Shown: in pieces, positions 14,045-30,375 of the stretch
How the letters are laid out: every line of letters starts with the position of its first letter
How positions within the stretch are numbered: position 1 is the stretch's first letter
NCBI GenBank assembly: GCA_029862005.1
Contig: JAOTYD010000029.1
Location: 1-41,057, forward strand
Length of the DNA stretch: 41,057 nt
Direction: 5' to 3'
DNA from: Gammaproteobacteria bacterium
GTDB taxonomy: Bacteria; Pseudomonadota; Gammaproteobacteria; GCA-001735895
Translations under genes and position numbers: made by a program
The notes under the pieces: model-generated
Database searches by the model: none
Told to the model about the DNA's origin: nothing
What the model saw: only the letters and a program-made list of their open reading frames with translations

Positions 14045-14923
14045 ATGGTTACCCATTCAGCAAGCCTGTACCTTGCCGCGGTGTTGATCTGGGGCTCCAC
14101 CTGGTTTGCGATAACATTTCAACTCGGAACGGTTGCTGCTGAAATCTCACTGGTTTACCGCTTTGGCCTGGCAGCGATAATCCTGCTGTTATTCTGTTTG
14201 TTCACGCGGCGCAAGTTACGCTTCACGGTGAGCGAGCATGGTTTTATTGCACTGCAGGGGTTGTTTCTATTCTCGAGTAATTACCTCGTATTTTACTGGG
14301 CGACATCGCTGCTGACCTCCGGCATTGTTGCGCTGCTGTTTTCCACGGTTATTTTGATGAACATCGTCAACGGTGCCGTTTTCATGGGCAGTCCGGTCCG
14401 ACCGCGCGTCATGCTGGGCGCCTGTATTGGTATTGGTGGTATCGCAGCAATTTTCTGGTCCGAAGTCAGTTCGGTCGAAAATATTGCCGATACCTGGCGT
14501 GGGTTGTGGATGTGCCTGATCGCGACCTTCTTTGCCTCGATAGGCAATATTATTTCAGCGCGAAATCAGAAATCCGGTATACCGGTAGTGCAGACAAATG
14601 CCTGGGGCATGGCCTACGGCACGATGATCATGATCGTTTTCGCGTTGTTCAGTCGCGCCACGTTTAACTATGACCCCACTTTGAGTTACAGCCTCTCGCT
14701 GATTTATCTTGCGGTTTTCGGTTCGATCCTGGCGTTCGGATCATACCTTACGCTGGTCGGACGAATCGGAGCCGACAAGGCGGCCTATGCCGCGGTTTTA
14801 TTTCCGGTCATCGCGCTGGGTCTGTCAACGCTGTTTGAAAATTACATCTGGACTTTGCAGGCGCTGCTGGGTTTCGCCATGGTGCTGCTTGGTAACTATA
14901 TTGTGCTCTCACGGCAAAGTTAA
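14045..14923 (+). CDS. EamA-type (DMT superfamily) transporter
   Basis: A 292-residue protein with about ten hydrophobic helices in two EamA repeats. The first starts at ASLYLAAVLIWGSTWFAI, and the second ends at FENYIWTLQALLGFAMVLLG. The start is ATG 14045, 11 bases after the kinase gene, so it is probably the last gene of the thiamine operon. Its substrate is unknown; position suggests, but does not prove, a link to thiamine or its precursors. Its stop overlaps the convergent 700-residue gene by 4 bases (TTAA). Confidence 0.85.
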   Translation: MVTHSASLYLAAVLIWGSTWFAITFQLGTVAAEISLVYRFGLAAIILLLFCLFTRRKLRFTVSEHGFIALQGLFLFSSNYLVFYWATSLLTSGIVALLFSTVILMNIVNGAVFMGSPVRPRVMLGACIGIGGIAAIFWSEVSSVENIADTWRGLWMCLIATFFASIGNIISARNQKSGIPVVQTNAWGMAYGTMIMIVFALFSRATFNYDPTLSYSLSLIYLAVFGSILAFGSYLTLVGRIGADKAAYAAVLFPVIALGLSTLFENYIWTLQALLGFAMVLLGNYIVLSRQS

Positions 14924-17022
14924 ATCCGTGCCAGCGGGTCTCCGAGTAGATTGGAAACGTTCGGCACCTGTTCCAGTGCCCATTTCAATTGATCGCGCGA
15001 GGCCGAGCCTAGCTGGCCCGGCGCGACGCGGTTCGACAGCGGTATCCCAGCTTCGAGATCGAGCAATTGTTGCTCCAGTATGGTATGGAAAATAATACGG
15101 TGGGCCTCGCTGAGGTTTTCCAGCGTGATCTGCATGTTATCGATTTCTGCACTGATTGCGGTGTAGCGCGCCGGCGTTGAGCGTGCGCGCAGACGATGCT
15201 TGATCGCCAGTACGCGTGCCGTCGAAAACAACGGCATGATGCCCCCCATTTTCAAATCCATGCGGCCATTGTCGAGTTTGAAGCGACCAAATAGTCCCAG
15301 TGGCGGCGAATTCTTGCAGGCGTTGATCGACATCAGCTTGATAAACAGTTTCGATTCGCTGCCCAGTTTAAAAGCATTGTCGAGGACGGCATCGGCAAGC
15401 CCGGTATCGCCATGTACGCCGACCGCGTCGAAAAAAATATCACACTTCAGGATATCCTCGGGATTCTGGCGCCGTATCCAGGTTTGCAGCATGTCATGCC
15501 AGCCCGACAGCGATAGCCGCCAGTCGGGATTGCTCGCCATGACTTTTCCCTGGCAGTAGGGTACGCCCGCAGCATCGAGCATATCGGATACCTTGCGACC
15601 AAGTTCGGCAAACCACTGATCTTCAGGTCCGCCAGGTCCGCCCTCGGCGAATACGATGGCATTGTCCTGGTCCATCGCCAACAGGCTTTCTCCGCGACCG
15701 CCAGACCCGAGCACCAGCATGGCGTAGGGGCAGGGTGGCGGGGTCGACATTTCTCGCTCGGCCAGGATGCAGGCCTGGCGCGTCAGTGCACAGAGTTCGC
15801 GCGAAATCACTGCGGCCACGTCGCGGACGTCGACATCCTCTGCAACCAGGCTCTTGGCGACCAGTGCGATATTGCCCCATACGGCGGACATTTGCCCGGT
15901 ACTATCGGCAGCGTCGATGTCGTCTCCCAGCAGTACCGCGTCATCGGCACGTTGGCGCAACAGGTCACGTGCCGACAGCGCGCCGATAATATTGCCATGG
16001 TTATCGTGTACTCCAAGGTGACGGACGTGCATGCGTTTCATGCGCGCGATGGCGCGGTAAACGAAGGCATCGGCAGACAGGCTTGCCAGTGGATAAACCG
16101 CAATATCACTGACCGGAAGTTCGAAAGCGGCAGCGCCAAGTTCACGAAACTTGCGCAGTAAATCCCGCTCGGTCACGATGCCCAACTTGTCACCGGTTTT
16201 CGCAGGATGTACGTAGACGGAGCTGACCTCTCGGTCGATCAGGGTCGCCAGCGCTTCGCGCAGGCTGATGCCGTGGTCAACGATCAGGGGCGGGCTGTTC
16301 ATCAGGTCGCGCAGGCGATGCCGGTAGGGAAAGCTGTCGATTCGGGCCAATGCGGTGCGCGTGCTTTTCGCTTGCTGGATATCGAGCCAGCCGATCTGGG
16401 CCTCGCGAGTACTGGCCTCGCTGAAGCGTTCACAGGCTCTTTCGAGTTCGGCCAGCGTGCGAATCCCGCGCTCGCGTAGTCTCGGGATCAGTGCGACAAA
16501 AATTTCGGCGGTTGCAATCGCGTCACCCAGTGCGCTGTGACGGTTCCTGGTTTCAACGCCAATCCAGCCGGCTATAGTGTCGAGTGAAAAATCGGGCAGG
16601 TTGGGAGAGAGTAGATTGACCAGGAAACGTACGTCCAGACAACGTGGTGCAGACCATTCGAGCCCGGCAATTTCGGTTTCACGTTTCAGCATCGCCAGGT
16701 CAAAGCCGGTCGCATACCCGACCAGGACTGAATCACCGCGCCATTCGTCAAATGCCCTGACCACCTCGCTGAAGCCACTGGCATCAGATACATCAGCGTC
16801 GCTGATACCGTGAATGGCCTGGCTTTCGGGTGGAATCGGCACCCCGGGATTGATCAGTTGCTGGAAATTCTGGGTCTCGTCGACCTCGCCATGCACAATA
16901 CGCACCGCGCCGAGTTGAATCATACGCGCGCTGCTGGTATCCAGGCCGGTGGTCTCGCTGTCGAAGGCGAGCGCATCCAGCGATAATAATGGGATCGACG
17001 CAGGATTATGCTGCTTCGCCAT
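14920..17022 (-). CDS. DEDDh exonuclease - CBS pair - DUF294 nucleotidyltransferase fusion
   Basis: A 700-residue multidomain protein. Residues about 12-185 form a DnaQ-like 3'-5' exonuclease with Asp21, Glu23, Asp108, His162 and Asp167 (DEDDh). Residues about 236-358 are a CBS pair (VDHGISLREALATL, GIVTERDLLR, GALSARDLL), which usually senses adenine nucleotides. Residues about 432-505 are a DUF294 putative nucleotidyltransferase with LVLGSGGRGE and MDQDNAIV (G-S and D-x-D metal motif), followed by the DUF294 C-terminal helical domain. All catalytic motifs are present. It starts 3 bases after the SDR stop, so the two are cotranscribed. DUF294-CBS proteins are common, and N-terminal exonuclease fusions occur in some Proteobacteria. 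The pathway is unknown. Confidence 0.85.
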   Translation of the reverse strand: MAKQHNPASIPLLSLDALAFDSETTGLDTSSARMIQLGAVRIVHGEVDETQNFQQLINPGVPIPPESQAIHGISDADVSDASGFSEVVRAFDEWRGDSVLVGYATGFDLAMLKRETEIAGLEWSAPRCLDVRFLVNLLSPNLPDFSLDTIAGWIGVETRNRHSALGDAIATAEIFVALIPRLRERGIRTLAELERACERFSEASTREAQIGWLDIQQAKSTRTALARIDSFPYRHRLRDLMNSPPLIVDHGISLREALATLIDREVSSVYVHPAKTGDKLGIVTERDLLRKFRELGAAAFELPVSDIAVYPLASLSADAFVYRAIARMKRMHVRHLGVHDNHGNIIGALSARDLLRQRADDAVLLGDDIDAADSTGQMSAVWGNIALVAKSLVAEDVDVRDVAAVISRELCALTRQACILAEREMSTPPPCPYAMLVLGSGGRGESLLAMDQDNAIVFAEGGPGGPEDQWFAELGRKVSDMLDAAGVPYCQGKVMASNPDWRLSLSGWHDMLQTWIRRQNPEDILKCDIFFDAVGVHGDTGLADAVLDNAFKLGSESKLFIKLMSINACKNSPPLGLFGRFKLDNGRMDLKMGGIMPLFSTARVLAIKHRLRARSTPARYTAISAEIDNMQITLENLSEAHRIIFHTILEQQLLDLEAGIPLSNRVAPGQLGSASRDQLKWALEQVPNVSNLLGDPLARI

Positions 17023-25205: not shown

Positions 25206-25610
25206 TTACTGAACGAGAATACTGGAGAACAGGATTTCGCTGACCACCGCACTGCCGGAAAGGTCGGCAATTAAGGCCTGCACCTGTGATGTCGCTTGCA
25301 GACGGATTTCCTCGCGCCGGGCGGGTGATTTGATATCGCCTGCTTTTTGCTCGCTGAGCAGCATGATCAGGCTATGCCGAATCGCCGGCACATGTGTCTT
25401 GATGGTCTCTTCTGCGTCCGAATCACTGACCAGCACATCGGCGCTGAGCTGCAGAAAAGTGAGCCGCCTGGAGCCGCTCAGGTTAAGTACCATCGGATCA
25501 CCCAGTGAAATATAGGCCGAGGCCGCCCTGGCTTCTGCCTCGTCATCTGCTGCATTTACCTGGGCGAATACCATCATTAGTATCGTTGCGCTTAAAATTA
25601 GCTTTTGCAT
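25206..25610 (-). CDS. FliL-like secreted protein without flagellar neighbours
   Basis: A 134-residue protein with a cleavable-looking signal peptide (about 1-20, ending QVNA) and a FliL-type domain: YISLGDPMVLNL, RLTFLQLSADVLV, IKTHVPAIRHSLIMLLSEQ, the basic RREEIRLQA helix and the C-terminal VSEILFSSILVQ. True FliL is a membrane-anchored stator protein, and this form seems to be released to the periplasm after cleavage. No flagellar gene lies in the window. AAGGA stands 7 bases before the ATG. The function is unknown. Confidence 0.8.
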   Translation of the reverse strand: MQKLILSATILMMVFAQVNAADDEAEARAASAYISLGDPMVLNLSGSRRLTFLQLSADVLVSDSDAEETIKTHVPAIRHSLIMLLSEQKAGDIKSPARREEIRLQATSQVQALIADLSGSAVVSEILFSSILVQ

Positions 25611-25675: not shown

Positions 25676-25906
25676 ATGACTCCAGAACATATTCAACAGT
25701 TAATCGCCTCACAGATGCCGGATGCGGCCGTTGAAGTCAGCGGTGGCGAAGGCAAGTTTGTTGCCAACGTCATCAGCGATGCATTCGAGGGCCTGTCCCC
25801 GATCAAACGTCACCAGCTGGTTTACGCCTGTGTCAACAATGAAATTGCTTCCGGTGAATTGCATGCATTAACCATTGTTGCTAAGACGGCTGCCGAGGCT
25901 GGCTAA
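25676..25906 (+). CDS. ibaG: BolA-family protein IbaG/YrbA type
   Basis: A 76-residue BolA-like protein. It has the helix TPEHIQQLIASQMP, the strand AAVEVSGGEGKFVANVIS, the FEGLSPIKRHQLVYACVNN helix (with the Y..VN pattern of IbaG) and the ELHALTIVAKTAAE end with a conserved His. Such proteins work with monothiol glutaredoxins in iron-sulfur trafficking. In many Gammaproteobacteria it sits beside murA, but not here. Its stop shares CTAA with the convergent diguanylate cyclase gene. Confidence 0.88.
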   Translation: MTPEHIQQLIASQMPDAAVEVSGGEGKFVANVISDAFEGLSPIKRHQLVYACVNNEIASGELHALTIVAKTAAEAG

Positions 25907-27600
25907 TCGGCAATAAACTGGCAATCACGCCCTGAATTCTTGGCCTTGTACAAGGCCTTATCGGCGCGTTCGTATATCGACTCGACATCATCACCGTCGC
26001 GGGTTTCAGTAATGCCTGCTGACAATGTCAGGGTTACCGGCTCGCCCTTGAAATGAAAACTACTGGCGGCAATGCCGGCACGCATTTTTTCCACCAACTT
26101 GCTCGCATTGTCCTGCGCGGTGCTGGTCAGCAACAATACGAATTCTTCGCCGCCGATGCGGAATACATAATCCGACTGGCGCACATAGGTCGTCATCAGC
26201 TGCGCAACAAGTTTCAATGCCTTGTCGCCCGCGTTGTGCCCATAGGTATCATTGATCCGTTTGAAGTGATCGATGTCGAGAATAACGTAGCTGAACGGCG
26301 TTTGGTAACGGGTCCAGCGCGCGAGCTCCTGCTGAATACGCTCGTCGTAGGCCATACGGCTATAAACACCGGTGAGCGCGTCATAAAGCAGTTTGGTGCG
26401 GTTCTCCTGCAGCATGACCTGTAATTCCTGAGTCTCCTGTTCCATCTGGGAGAGCTGCTCGGTGAGCTTCAGGTTGCGCTCTGCGGTTGCCTCGTGGCGC
26501 TCGTCAAAGCGTTCCGCAAAATCATCGACGCCACCACTGATATCGTCAATATTTTTTGAAATCTCGGACTTCAACTCCTGCAGGTCATTGCTGGATCGGG
26601 AGTTTTTCTGAATTAGCTCGATGCCTTCCTGCACAAAACCCTGTAACGATTTGGCATCCTCGTAATTGGACTCCTGGTCCTTCTGATCTTCATTGATGGC
26701 CTGGGTTACATCACCCAGCTGTTCGGTGACCTTGACAATAAAGTTTTCAAGCCCGCGTTTTTCCTGCTCGAGATTTTTAAGTGAGCTCGAAATCGAGTTA
26801 ACGATGTCGTTCAGAGTATCGGTCCATTGTTCATCGTCAACGCCTTCGTGTACGCGGGTCTGGATCTCCTGGGTGGCGCTGTCTGCGCCTTGAATAAGCG
26901 CAAGTTTTTCGAGCAGAGTGGTCATCATCTGATCGGACTGAGCGCCGGTGGAATTCGAGTTGATTTGCGTGTTGATCAAACTGGCCAGGGCATTCAGTTC
27001 CTGCTCCCTTACTTCACCGGTATCACCCGTCAATGCGCGTGCCTTTTCTAAAGTGGATTCGTCGAGATCGAGTAACTGCAGTAACGGCAGGATAGAACTG
27101 GAAGATGTACCCTTGATGTTGTTACTGCCGAAATTTTCGTTGATGAGCACGGAAAGCTTCTGAATGTAAGCGCTTACCGAGTCACGATCATGACCGTTGG
27201 CGACCGAGATCAGCAATTCCGAGCAGATATCCTTCAACTGGCCACGTTGAGCTGCGTTAAAGTGAATGTTCTGCAGCAATTCAAGCATTAGCATGACGGG
27301 ATCAGAACGACGCGATTTGGCGCCTGCTTTTGGATTTCCGAGCGACGCTACGATTTTAGCGAGCTGTGGTAGTGCCGCGGCAAGTTCATCGTCATGCTTA
27401 TCCCGCGACAGCTCCTGTATGGTGCGTAACTGCTTGTCGAGCCCGGCATCGAGCCCTCGGCCGGCAATACTCAGGCGGCTGATCGCCATGCGCAGCAGCG
27501 TCTCGCATTGCACCCACTGCTGTTCGCGCGCCTCAAGATCCTTGAGTGCGTCTTGATATCTCGACTCCCAGTCGGTATTTTGTTCGACCTCGTGCAACAT
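25903..27600 (-). CDS. Diguanylate cyclase (GGDEF) with long helical N-terminus
   Basis: A 565-residue protein. The C-terminal GGDEF domain (about 395-563) has the active-site motif RIGGEEF (GGEEF at 483-487) and an inhibitory I-site RQSD exactly five residues before it, so it should make c-di-GMP and be product-inhibited. The first 390 residues are almost entirely helical, with a predicted coiled coil (about 290-395) leading into the GGDEF domain. There is no membrane helix, PAS, GAF or receiver domain that I can recognise. The input signal is unknown. It is divergent from the Rieske gene. Confidence 0.9.
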   Translation of the reverse strand: MLHEVEQNTDWESRYQDALKDLEAREQQWVQCETLLRMAISRLSIAGRGLDAGLDKQLRTIQELSRDKHDDELAAALPQLAKIVASLGNPKAGAKSRRSDPVMLMLELLQNIHFNAAQRGQLKDICSELLISVANGHDRDSVSAYIQKLSVLINENFGSNNIKGTSSSSILPLLQLLDLDESTLEKARALTGDTGEVREQELNALASLINTQINSNSTGAQSDQMMTTLLEKLALIQGADSATQEIQTRVHEGVDDEQWTDTLNDIVNSISSSLKNLEQEKRGLENFIVKVTEQLGDVTQAINEDQKDQESNYEDAKSLQGFVQEGIELIQKNSRSSNDLQELKSEISKNIDDISGGVDDFAERFDERHEATAERNLKLTEQLSQMEQETQELQVMLQENRTKLLYDALTGVYSRMAYDERIQQELARWTRYQTPFSYVILDIDHFKRINDTYGHNAGDKALKLVAQLMTTYVRQSDYVFRIGGEEFVLLLTSTAQDNASKLVEKMRAGIAASSFHFKGEPVTLTLSAGITETRDGDDVESIYERADKALYKAKNSGRDCQFIAD

Positions 27601-27713
27601 CGGTTCAGTATCCGTGTCCCTTCCCTTAACGGGTCCGGGGTGAATGCAGATTCTTGCCCTGTTATTGTGGCTCCCACGTTATCGGCTTTGAGCGAGGATT
27701 TATAAGTAAAAAT

Positions 27714-28058
27714 ATGGAAAATTTATTGTTTATTTGCACGATGGAAAGGTTGTCCGATCCGGGTTCCTACGGATTTTCACTGGACTGCGCGGGAGAGACT
27801 GTCGAGGGATTCGTGGTAAGGCGTGACGGTGAATGCTTTGGGTATCGCAATAGCTGCCCGCATACCGGTTCACCGCTGGACTGGGTTGATCACCAGTTCC
27901 TCGATATTGAGGGCAGGTTGATCCAGTGTGCAGTGCACGACGCACGCTTTCTGATTGATACCGGGGAATGTGTTCTGGGGCCCTGTCCGGGGGAAAGCCT
28001 CGAGTCCCTGCCGATCAGGGTACAAGGTGAAAAAGTCTACTTGCTCAGTGACGCGTAG
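27714..28058 (+). CDS. Rieske 2Fe-2S domain protein
   Basis: A 114-residue stand-alone Rieske protein. The cluster motifs are CPHTG (Cys-x-His) and CAVHDARF (Cys-x2-His), about 20 residues apart, flanked by FGYRNSCPH and [13 protein letters not shown]. Such small soluble Rieske proteins act as electron carriers for oxygenases or other redox enzymes, but no partner is next to it. The start is ATG 27714; ATG 27741 is a possible shorter start. Its last 22 bases overlap the convergent rimO gene. Confidence 0.88.
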
Positions 28059-29646: not shown

Positions 29647-30375
29647 ATGAAATCTATAAAATTACTGCTTGTACTATTTATCCTGTCGAGCCAGTCGTTT
29701 TCTGCTCGAGCCGAGTTACTGGATCAGGGCTTGAATTCGATCATGCAGATTATCGATAAGGCCATTGTCGAACTTGGCCAACAAACTACCGGAGACAGTG
29801 TCGAAGCGGATGCCGCGGCGCTCGAAAATGCCACCAGCACCATTGTCAACCTGTCGAGAACGCTTGGTACGCTAAGTTATTCGCGCCTGCAGTGCGGCGA
29901 AGCCGGTGTGCTGGCCGAATTTACCCAGCGCGTTCAATTGATGCCCGAAGAAAGTCGTGATCCCATGCGTGATGCTTTCCAGGAAGGTTTCGATAAAAGC
30001 AAAGAGGAAACCCCGTTATTGTCGACGGATGAATGTGAGCGCCTGACACGTTCACGGGTTCGAAGTGAGCCGACCGACGAAGCGAATGTGATCGAAGACA
30101 AGAGTACGGCCAAGGCGGAATCCGAGGCCGAGGAAGTCAAGGAAGAGCTGCCACCCGAAGACCCGAAATTCCGGCATTTACGTATCGCCGAATTGACCGG
30201 CCAACTCGCCTACAAGCGCAAGTTTTGCGAGGATGAGAAAGTCTTCAACCGAGATTACAACGAATATCTCGAATCCATTCCTGAAGAATTCCGCGAAGAA
30301 GTTAAATCGGCCTACTGGAAGGGTTTCAAGCATGGCAAGCACCTCAATAAAAACCTGACCAGGGAACAGTGCTAA
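29647..30375 (+). CDS. Secreted protein with duplicated two-cysteine module, unknown function
   Basis: A 242-residue protein with a signal peptide (about 1-22, ending SARA). It contains two similar modules: residues about 69-130 and 180-242. Each has a G-x2-L-x-Y-x-R-x2-C start (Cys83, Cys194), an internal P-E-E-x-R with an A/S-x-GF segment, and a closing Cys (Cys130, Cys242), spaced 47 and 48 residues. An acidic, disordered linker (about 135-175) separates them. Each module resembles the pattern I know from TIGR02301 proteins, which is also uncharacterised. A disulfide in each module is likely in the periplasm. Its stop shares CTAA with ubiB. Confidence 0.75.
   Translation: MKSIKLLLVLFILSSQSFSARAELLDQGLNSIMQIIDKAIVELGQQTTGDSVEADAAALENATSTIVNLSRTLGTLSYSRLQCGEAGVLAEFTQRVQLMPEESRDPMRDAFQEGFDKSKEETPLLSTDECERLTRSRVRSEPTDEANVIEDKSTAKAESEAEEVKEELPPEDPKFRHLRIAELTGQLAYKRKFCEDEKVFNRDYNEYLESIPEEFREEVKSAYWKGFKHGKHLNKNLTREQC

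Follow-up and report, generated by a model that had tools for sequence, protein, structure and literature searches.

A conserved protein with two tandem DUF2385-like modules in an order of Gammaproteobacteria

In this study, we analyzed a stretch of 41,057 nucleotides from a gammaproteobacterial genome (contig JAOTYD010000029.1, here called the window) and found that the gene at positions 29647-30375 encodes a protein built from two homologous copies of a two-cysteine module. The gene is real and both modules are under purifying selection. Sequence comparisons indicate that the protein is a distant tandem relative of DUF2385, sharing common ancestry of the domain. What is new is a tandem variant of a known, uncharacterised domain, which is conserved and worth a name; the finding overturns nothing, and the evidence compels no mechanism. 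A full-text literature search that excluded most subscription journals and supplements returned no paper on DUF2385, TIGR02301 or PF09539. The parts of the gene are as follows:

29647..30375, + strand: whole gene for a two-module DUF2385-like protein, presumably exported, 242 aa plus stop
29647..29712, + strand: signal-peptide-like N-terminus, residues 1-22 (MKSIKLLLVLFILSSQSFSARA, followed by E), recognised by eye from the sequence
29713..29790, + strand: conserved N-terminal helix, residues 23-48 (DQGLNS..IIDKAI), from the alignment and helical in the model
29827..30066, + strand: module 1, residues 61-140, 85% mean identity to relatives
29893..29895, + strand: Cys83 codon, which directly follows the first helix of module 1; invariant across all 23 proteins
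30034..30036, + strand: Cys130 codon, close to where the last helix of module 1 begins; invariant across all 23 proteins
30067..30159, + strand: variable acidic linker, residues 141-171, 44% mean identity of relatives to the window protein
30160..30372, + strand: module 2, residues 172-242, 75% mean identity to relatives
30226..30228, + strand: Cys194 codon, where the first helix of module 2 ends; invariant across all 23 proteins
30370..30372, + strand: Cys242 codon, last residue, invariant in 23 of 23

The open reading frame starts with ATG and stops with TAA, giving a product of 242 amino acids that, in identity and architecture, is very probably a two-module relative of DUF2385; it would be soluble and exported. 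Export to the periplasm is suggested by the signal-like N-terminal segment, which by eye ends in ARA before E23 and has 48% mean identity to relatives over residues 1-22; a lipobox cysteine is absent, the first cysteine being residue 83. Conservation was read from an alignment of the window protein with 22 of 25 related loci (L032, L040 and L055 were omitted as close copies). In these 23 proteins, the N-terminal helix has invariant D26, Q27, G28, L29, S31, I35, D37 and A39 and is separated by a variable stretch from module 1, and every protein has exactly four cysteines after residue 22. The linker, described as acidic in an earlier reading of the sequence alone, is indeed both acidic and variable; behind the signal-like stretch, only residues 49-60 are less conserved, and pLDDT falls below 50 at residues 141-164 in the full structural model.

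That sequence-only reading had proposed two copies of a two-cysteine module with Cys-Cys spacings of 47 and 48, and both points hold: the cysteines lie at 83, 130, 194 and 242, and a BLASTP comparison, a shuffle test and half-profiles all agree on the repeat. The two halves share GTLSYSRLQC and GQLAYKRKFC, PEESR and PEEFR, EGF and KGF, and DEC and EQC. The opening motif it had written as G..L.Y.R..C is a genuine shared element, although its true form, G.L.Y.R..C, is one residue shorter. The local BLOSUM62 score between the halves was 79, compared with a shuffle mean of 23.8 (sd 4.5, maximum 49; fitted p ~6e-8), and BLASTP of one half against the other gave E 2e-9 as a single comparison, with 28% identity over 58 columns. 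The profile match between the halves, which had been suggested as a check, was found by hhalign with profiles of 23 sequences each (E 5.3e-7, probability 92%), whereas the N-terminal segment matched neither half in this half-profile comparison. A chance resemblance could draw on the modest identity of 27-28% over ~60 residues; against it, none of 2000 shuffles reached the real score, the two E-values are very low and both half-profiles match the same outside family, so that chance has a negligible probability.

The full model (pLDDT 72.9, pTM 0.43) places helices at residues 54-82, 87-97, 101-121 and 127-140 in module 1 and at 173-195, 202-210 and 213-233 in module 2, and the helices follow one another in the same order in both halves. 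Module 2 modelled alone (pLDDT 91.5, pTM 0.78) forms three helices, with Cys194 ending the first helix and Cys242 at the C-terminus. In module 1, helix 127-140 lies at and after the second cysteine, whereas module 2 stops at its cysteine. Foldseek searches of the PDB with the full and module 2 models gave no match at E <0.001, nor did a search of viral models with module 2, for which the top VIA-align Z was 4.8 (rmsd 3.2, 65 aligned). Residues 19-103 of the full model matched a SNARE Habc domain in VIA-align (Z 8.7, rmsd 2.3, 84 aligned), to which we gave no weight because the match spans the signal-like end plus half of module 1 and because such a Z is common for helical bundles. Searches of solved structures by sequence returned only chance-level matches, namely, E 0.06 at best for the whole-protein profile (a designed fibre protein), 0.075 for the module profile, 0.56 for one alpha member of DUF2385 and 0.7 for the alpha profile. 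As far as these models go, the structure searches show neither a new fold nor a known one.

The relationship to TIGR02301, for which the earlier reading had gone no further than a relation in pattern, can be raised to distant homology, since matches were obtained in both search directions. TIGR02301 (NCBIfam, a hypothetical equivalog) and DUF2385 (PF09539) are two names for the same domain. In hmmscan, the whole window protein was significant for TIGR02301 (28.9 bits, E 9.3e-7) but stayed under the curated cut-off of 42.55 bits, and DUF2385 scored 22 bits (E 2.5e-4) with a gathering cut-off of 25 bits. Formal membership of either family therefore fails. In addition, TIGR02301 describes a single domain of about 121 positions, whereas the window protein consists of two modules; a single-domain positive control covered profile positions 7-119 with 137.1 bits. 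At a limit of E up to 10, each profile aligned in two stretches of the window protein, one of which passed alone at E 0.05 for TIGR02301 and none for DUF2385. Among the 23 aligned proteins, TIGR02301 matched 17 and DUF2385 matched 19 at E <=0.05 (best 9.1e-7 and 1.4e-5, respectively). Other rows that fell within the same limit of E 10 were read as noise: YjdP (0.028) and beta-lactamase (0.14) from NCBIfam, both over the signal-like N-terminus, and UBM (0.067) and DUF6395 (0.09) from Pfam.

A profile of 20 single-domain DUF2385 sequences ranked every tandem copy above the decoys. All 26 tandem copies (the window and the 25 loci) scored 18.1-27.2 bits as whole proteins and 11.5-16.5 bits for the best single stretch, whereas the best of 3000 shuffles reached 8.0 bits and the best other ORF 6.9 bits (the ORF set comprised 2065 ORFs including the 26 copies; decoys numbered about 5,000 in all). 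By hhalign, both half-profiles aligned with the alpha DUF2385 profile, module 1 with E 3.3e-6 (probability 88%) and module 2 with E 2.3e-4 (probability only 44%). In the reverse direction, a blind search of 398 genomes of the phylum with the gamma-module profile found only the window's genome and one single-domain DUF2385 carrier (G574, E 3.3e-4); it missed the remaining carriers, although DUF2385 itself had matched in 55 members of a 398-genome phylum sample with the same genome numbers. All 55 were labelled 'same phylum' and none 'same class', and among 14 named control genomes only Caulobacter vibrioides had the domain, from which we infer that the carriers are alphaproteobacteria.

The gamma modules and DUF2385 have in common two cysteines bracketing a helical core. 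Across an alignment of 41 gamma modules, which contains all 23 rows for module 2 and 18 of the 23 for module 1, G14, L16, C23, G55 and C71 do not vary, and G14, R20, C23 and C70 are among the invariant columns of 19 alpha members (of 20 fetched; L089 was omitted). Like the window protein, TIGR02301 proteins are small and have an LG.L.Y.R..C-like helix, an inner F..GY/GF and a second cysteine; unlike it, they have one domain, their middle loop (LLDAE.P..RR) is longer and their sequence continues further beyond the second cysteine, and DUF2385 carriers show one match per genome (in the 55 phylum-sample and 193 single-family genomes). Some results weaken the kinship. Module by module it is weak: with a limit of E 1, TIGR02301 matched 23 of the 41 modules (best 0.0039), and a different family, CD1375, matched 10 of them (best 0.0022). 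The case for distant homology comes from the combination of three points: one protein contains two modules that match, the cysteines are shared and many relatives agree. An internal duplication of a TIGR02301-related domain, as originally proposed, is supported by searches in both directions.

Searches for a single-domain relative in the same class gave matches that we regard as chance. The kinship is also weakened by six-frame searches of the genome that contains the window, in which neither TIGR02301 nor DUF2385 gave a match at E 0.001; at a looser limit, TIGR02301 matched the window's copy in the 369-genome class sample at E 0.0076, below three places in other families. At E 0.05, TIGR02301 matched 12 of the 369 genomes, two from the window's own family, and none of the 369 passed its cut-off. 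The best open candidate (L121, E 0.001) runs antisense over a gene that we take to be an XRE-type regulator, and we regard it as chance; it should be noted that its 18.7 bits on the alpha profile lie in the range of the weakest true copies. The other same-class places were also considered chance: several contain internal stops, L122 and L125 fell to ~5 bits when rescored on the alpha profile and L127 gave no score.

In a domain tree (66 rows, 77 columns), a branch sets each of three groups apart from the rest, namely, module 1 (93/73), module 2 (95/88) and the alpha domains (99/94), although the tree is unrooted, with few columns and long branches. Because the three groups separate in the tree, the duplication is probably older than the 23 sampled proteins. 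The middle loop with P-E-E is shorter in both modules than in the alpha domains; this common shortening would fit a duplication inside this lineage, a matter that the unrooted tree does not decide.

The tandem gene was found in 36 of the 41 genomes of its order, including a partial copy at a contig start (G019), and in 21 of the 22 with a completeness of 90% or more and a contamination of 5% or less; it was not found in G011, G020, G022, G028 and G033. One copy is present in 35 of the 36 carriers. The remaining carrier (G010, 5% contamination) has two copies on separate contigs (C96:2051-2758 and C237:5049-5789), either a paralogue or a mixed assembly. In the class sample, the protein occurred in 3 of 369 genomes, all of the window's own family, within which it spans three genera, and it was absent from the 72,556 plasmid records searched. 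The 25 named loci are titled mostly as uncultured Gammaproteobacteria assemblies; a Sedimenticola assembly and a symbiont of Olavius algarvensis are also among them. Comparison with five chosen from the 22 relatives gave a dN/dS of 0.05-0.09 for the mature part in four cases, dS being saturated in the fifth. In three of the five comparisons, dN/dS was 0.006-0.048 for module 1 and 0.022-0.115 for module 2, and it was higher for the linker (0.18-0.32).

The genes on either side of it in the window are both oppositely oriented, and it belongs to no operon, so its neighbours say little about its job. Across the 25 related loci, genes that we read as rimO and ubiB lie on the opposite strand, rimO upstream in 22, ubiB downstream in 19 and both in 17; Pfam assigned UPF0004/Radical SAM/TRAM and ABC1 domains to these neighbours. 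Some of the missing flanks are explained by cut loci: in two (L038 and L045) the sequence stops directly behind the gene, and one (L052) starts 238 bases before it. Three others (L046-L048) have 6 kb downstream without ubiB, and rimO was not found in 6 kb upstream in L053. In L052 (949-4019) and L053 (6714-8461), additional DNA separates the gene from ubiB. For the alpha DUF2385 genes, 20 of the 55 carriers were selected and the neighbours of eleven loci were read by eye; an SRAP/YedK-like gene was seen in several and a Nudix-like gene in one, and no operon emerged among the eleven.

Several other genes of the window were also noted. A small protein with a signal-like N-terminus (25206-25610, - strand) contains a FliL domain (68.6 bits, cut-off 24.6), FliL normally being a membrane-anchored flagellar protein, and the adjoining gene (25903-27600, - strand) encodes a GGDEF protein with a DGC-associated coil domain. 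The two are present together in 10 of the 25 related loci; a GGDEF gene lies near the tandem gene in 13 of 25, with only 29% identity in one. A single ORF at 14920-17022 (- strand) fuses an RNase T-type exonuclease, CBS domains and a DUF294 nucleotidyltransferase pair. A small stand-alone Rieske-domain protein is encoded at 27654-28058 (+ strand); its gene and the neighbouring radical SAM gene overlap at their 3' ends by 22 bases.

What the protein might do can be approached from its architecture. Each DUF2385-like copy would be compact and helical, with one disulfide (83-130 in the first, 194-242 in the second) probably closing it, and the two units would hang on a flexible acidic linker behind the conserved N-terminal helix. 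Four DsbA-family matches over the cut-off and one DsbB were found in the same genome; disulfides could therefore form in an exported protein whose cysteines are paired. The module helices are nearly invariant at polar and non-polar residues alike, the acidic tether changes fast and the mature part has no enzyme family match in Pfam or NCBIfam. On this basis, each module may offer a conserved helical face to a partner, and the protein could act in the periplasm as a two-site, non-catalytic binding or scaffolding factor with a housekeeping job for this bacterial order. Taken as a whole, an exported two-module periplasmic binding or scaffolding factor is our best explanation, held tentatively, and we are slightly less confident of the binding mechanism itself: we infer export, disulfides, binding role and two sites alike, and binding is what one would guess by default for any small helical protein that lacks a catalytic signature.

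Two alternatives start from known small periplasmic proteins. One is a chaperone or stress protector, in which two disulfide modules would shield envelope proteins; HdeA is the model for such shielding. The modules are small, helical, two-cysteine and exported-looking, and most genomes of the order have a single copy, which would suit this role. Yet the Pfam and NCBIfam rows for the window protein contain no chaperone family, solved chains match by sequence only at chance level and the neighbours scanned include no stress gene, and we consider the chaperone role improbable. A pilotin-like role appears less probable still. Pilotins of the PulS/OutS/GspS type (TIGR01004, PF09691) are small periplasmic proteins, lipoproteins, of which GspS and PulS act on secretins by a helical groove; by analogy, the modules would escort or bind a secretin or another outer-membrane assembly. 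One single-domain DUF2385 protein matched NCBIfam PulS_OutS (E 0.0029), and the two-cysteine layout of K-12 YacC, a pilotin-family protein (PF09691, 37.6 bits), resembles the window protein by eye, with a stretch ending in FLKNDC and a second cysteine 55 residues on. The PulS_OutS match, however, dropped to E 0.064 in one of 19 members once the signal-peptide part was removed, and none of the 41 window-type modules matched at E up to 1. YacC aligned at noise with DUF2385 and both modules in hhalign (E 0.25-0.64), and the DUF2385 profile gave it -0.9 bits, place 930 in the hit list, a score that shuffles reach as well. YacC was used alone in these comparisons, a broader pilotin alignment being unavailable since PF09691 occurred in none of 151 class-sample genomes. 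Thus, kinship to pilotins has no statistical support in sequence, and, in contrast with these lipoproteins, the window protein has no lipobox. The Foldseek and VIA-align matches listed contained no pilotin, an absence that does not exclude a pilotin fold.

The other two alternatives differ in what the cysteines or the exported modules would be for. In a redox-active or sensing protein, the disulfides would open and close, and four invariant cysteines could serve such a function; nevertheless, CxxC is absent, all 23 proteins have always four cysteines, and the paired ones lie 47-48 residues apart at the edges of a helical core, as structural disulfides often do. We therefore regard a redox function as very unlikely. 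An immunity or inhibitor protein that counters a toxin secreted by competitors is even harder to credit: small exported helical disulfide proteins are sometimes of such a kind, but immunity genes are usually patchy and fast-changing, whereas this gene has the same chromosomal place in 17 of the 25 loci, is carried by 36 of the 41 genomes of the order, is under strong constraint and has no match on the plasmid records.

A wider and more doubtful proposal is that DUF2385 belongs with its tandem gamma version to a single, overlooked family of periplasmic helpers with a core envelope function. In this order, a duplication that predates the 23 sampled proteins would then have given the helper, originally single-site, a second site. 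A strongly conserved homologous tandem in another class implies that the DUF2385 domain is older or more mobile than now described. Moreover, the tandem is a natural two-copy experiment, which could point out the residues that must stay in both copies and help in finding a partner.

Finally, the occurrence of the single-domain form was observed within one family, where DUF2385 was present once each in 193 of 199 sampled genomes, including one of 1.1 Mb. It was not found in six, four of them with 1.0-1.6 Mb and the other two with 4.3-5.0 Mb, which means that some genomes can do without the domain. Among small genomes of two genus codes (G468, G943 and G868 of g380; G789, G888 and G957 of g472), it has been kept in some and is missing in others, and such uneven presence within one genus code offers a possible lead to what the domain depends on.
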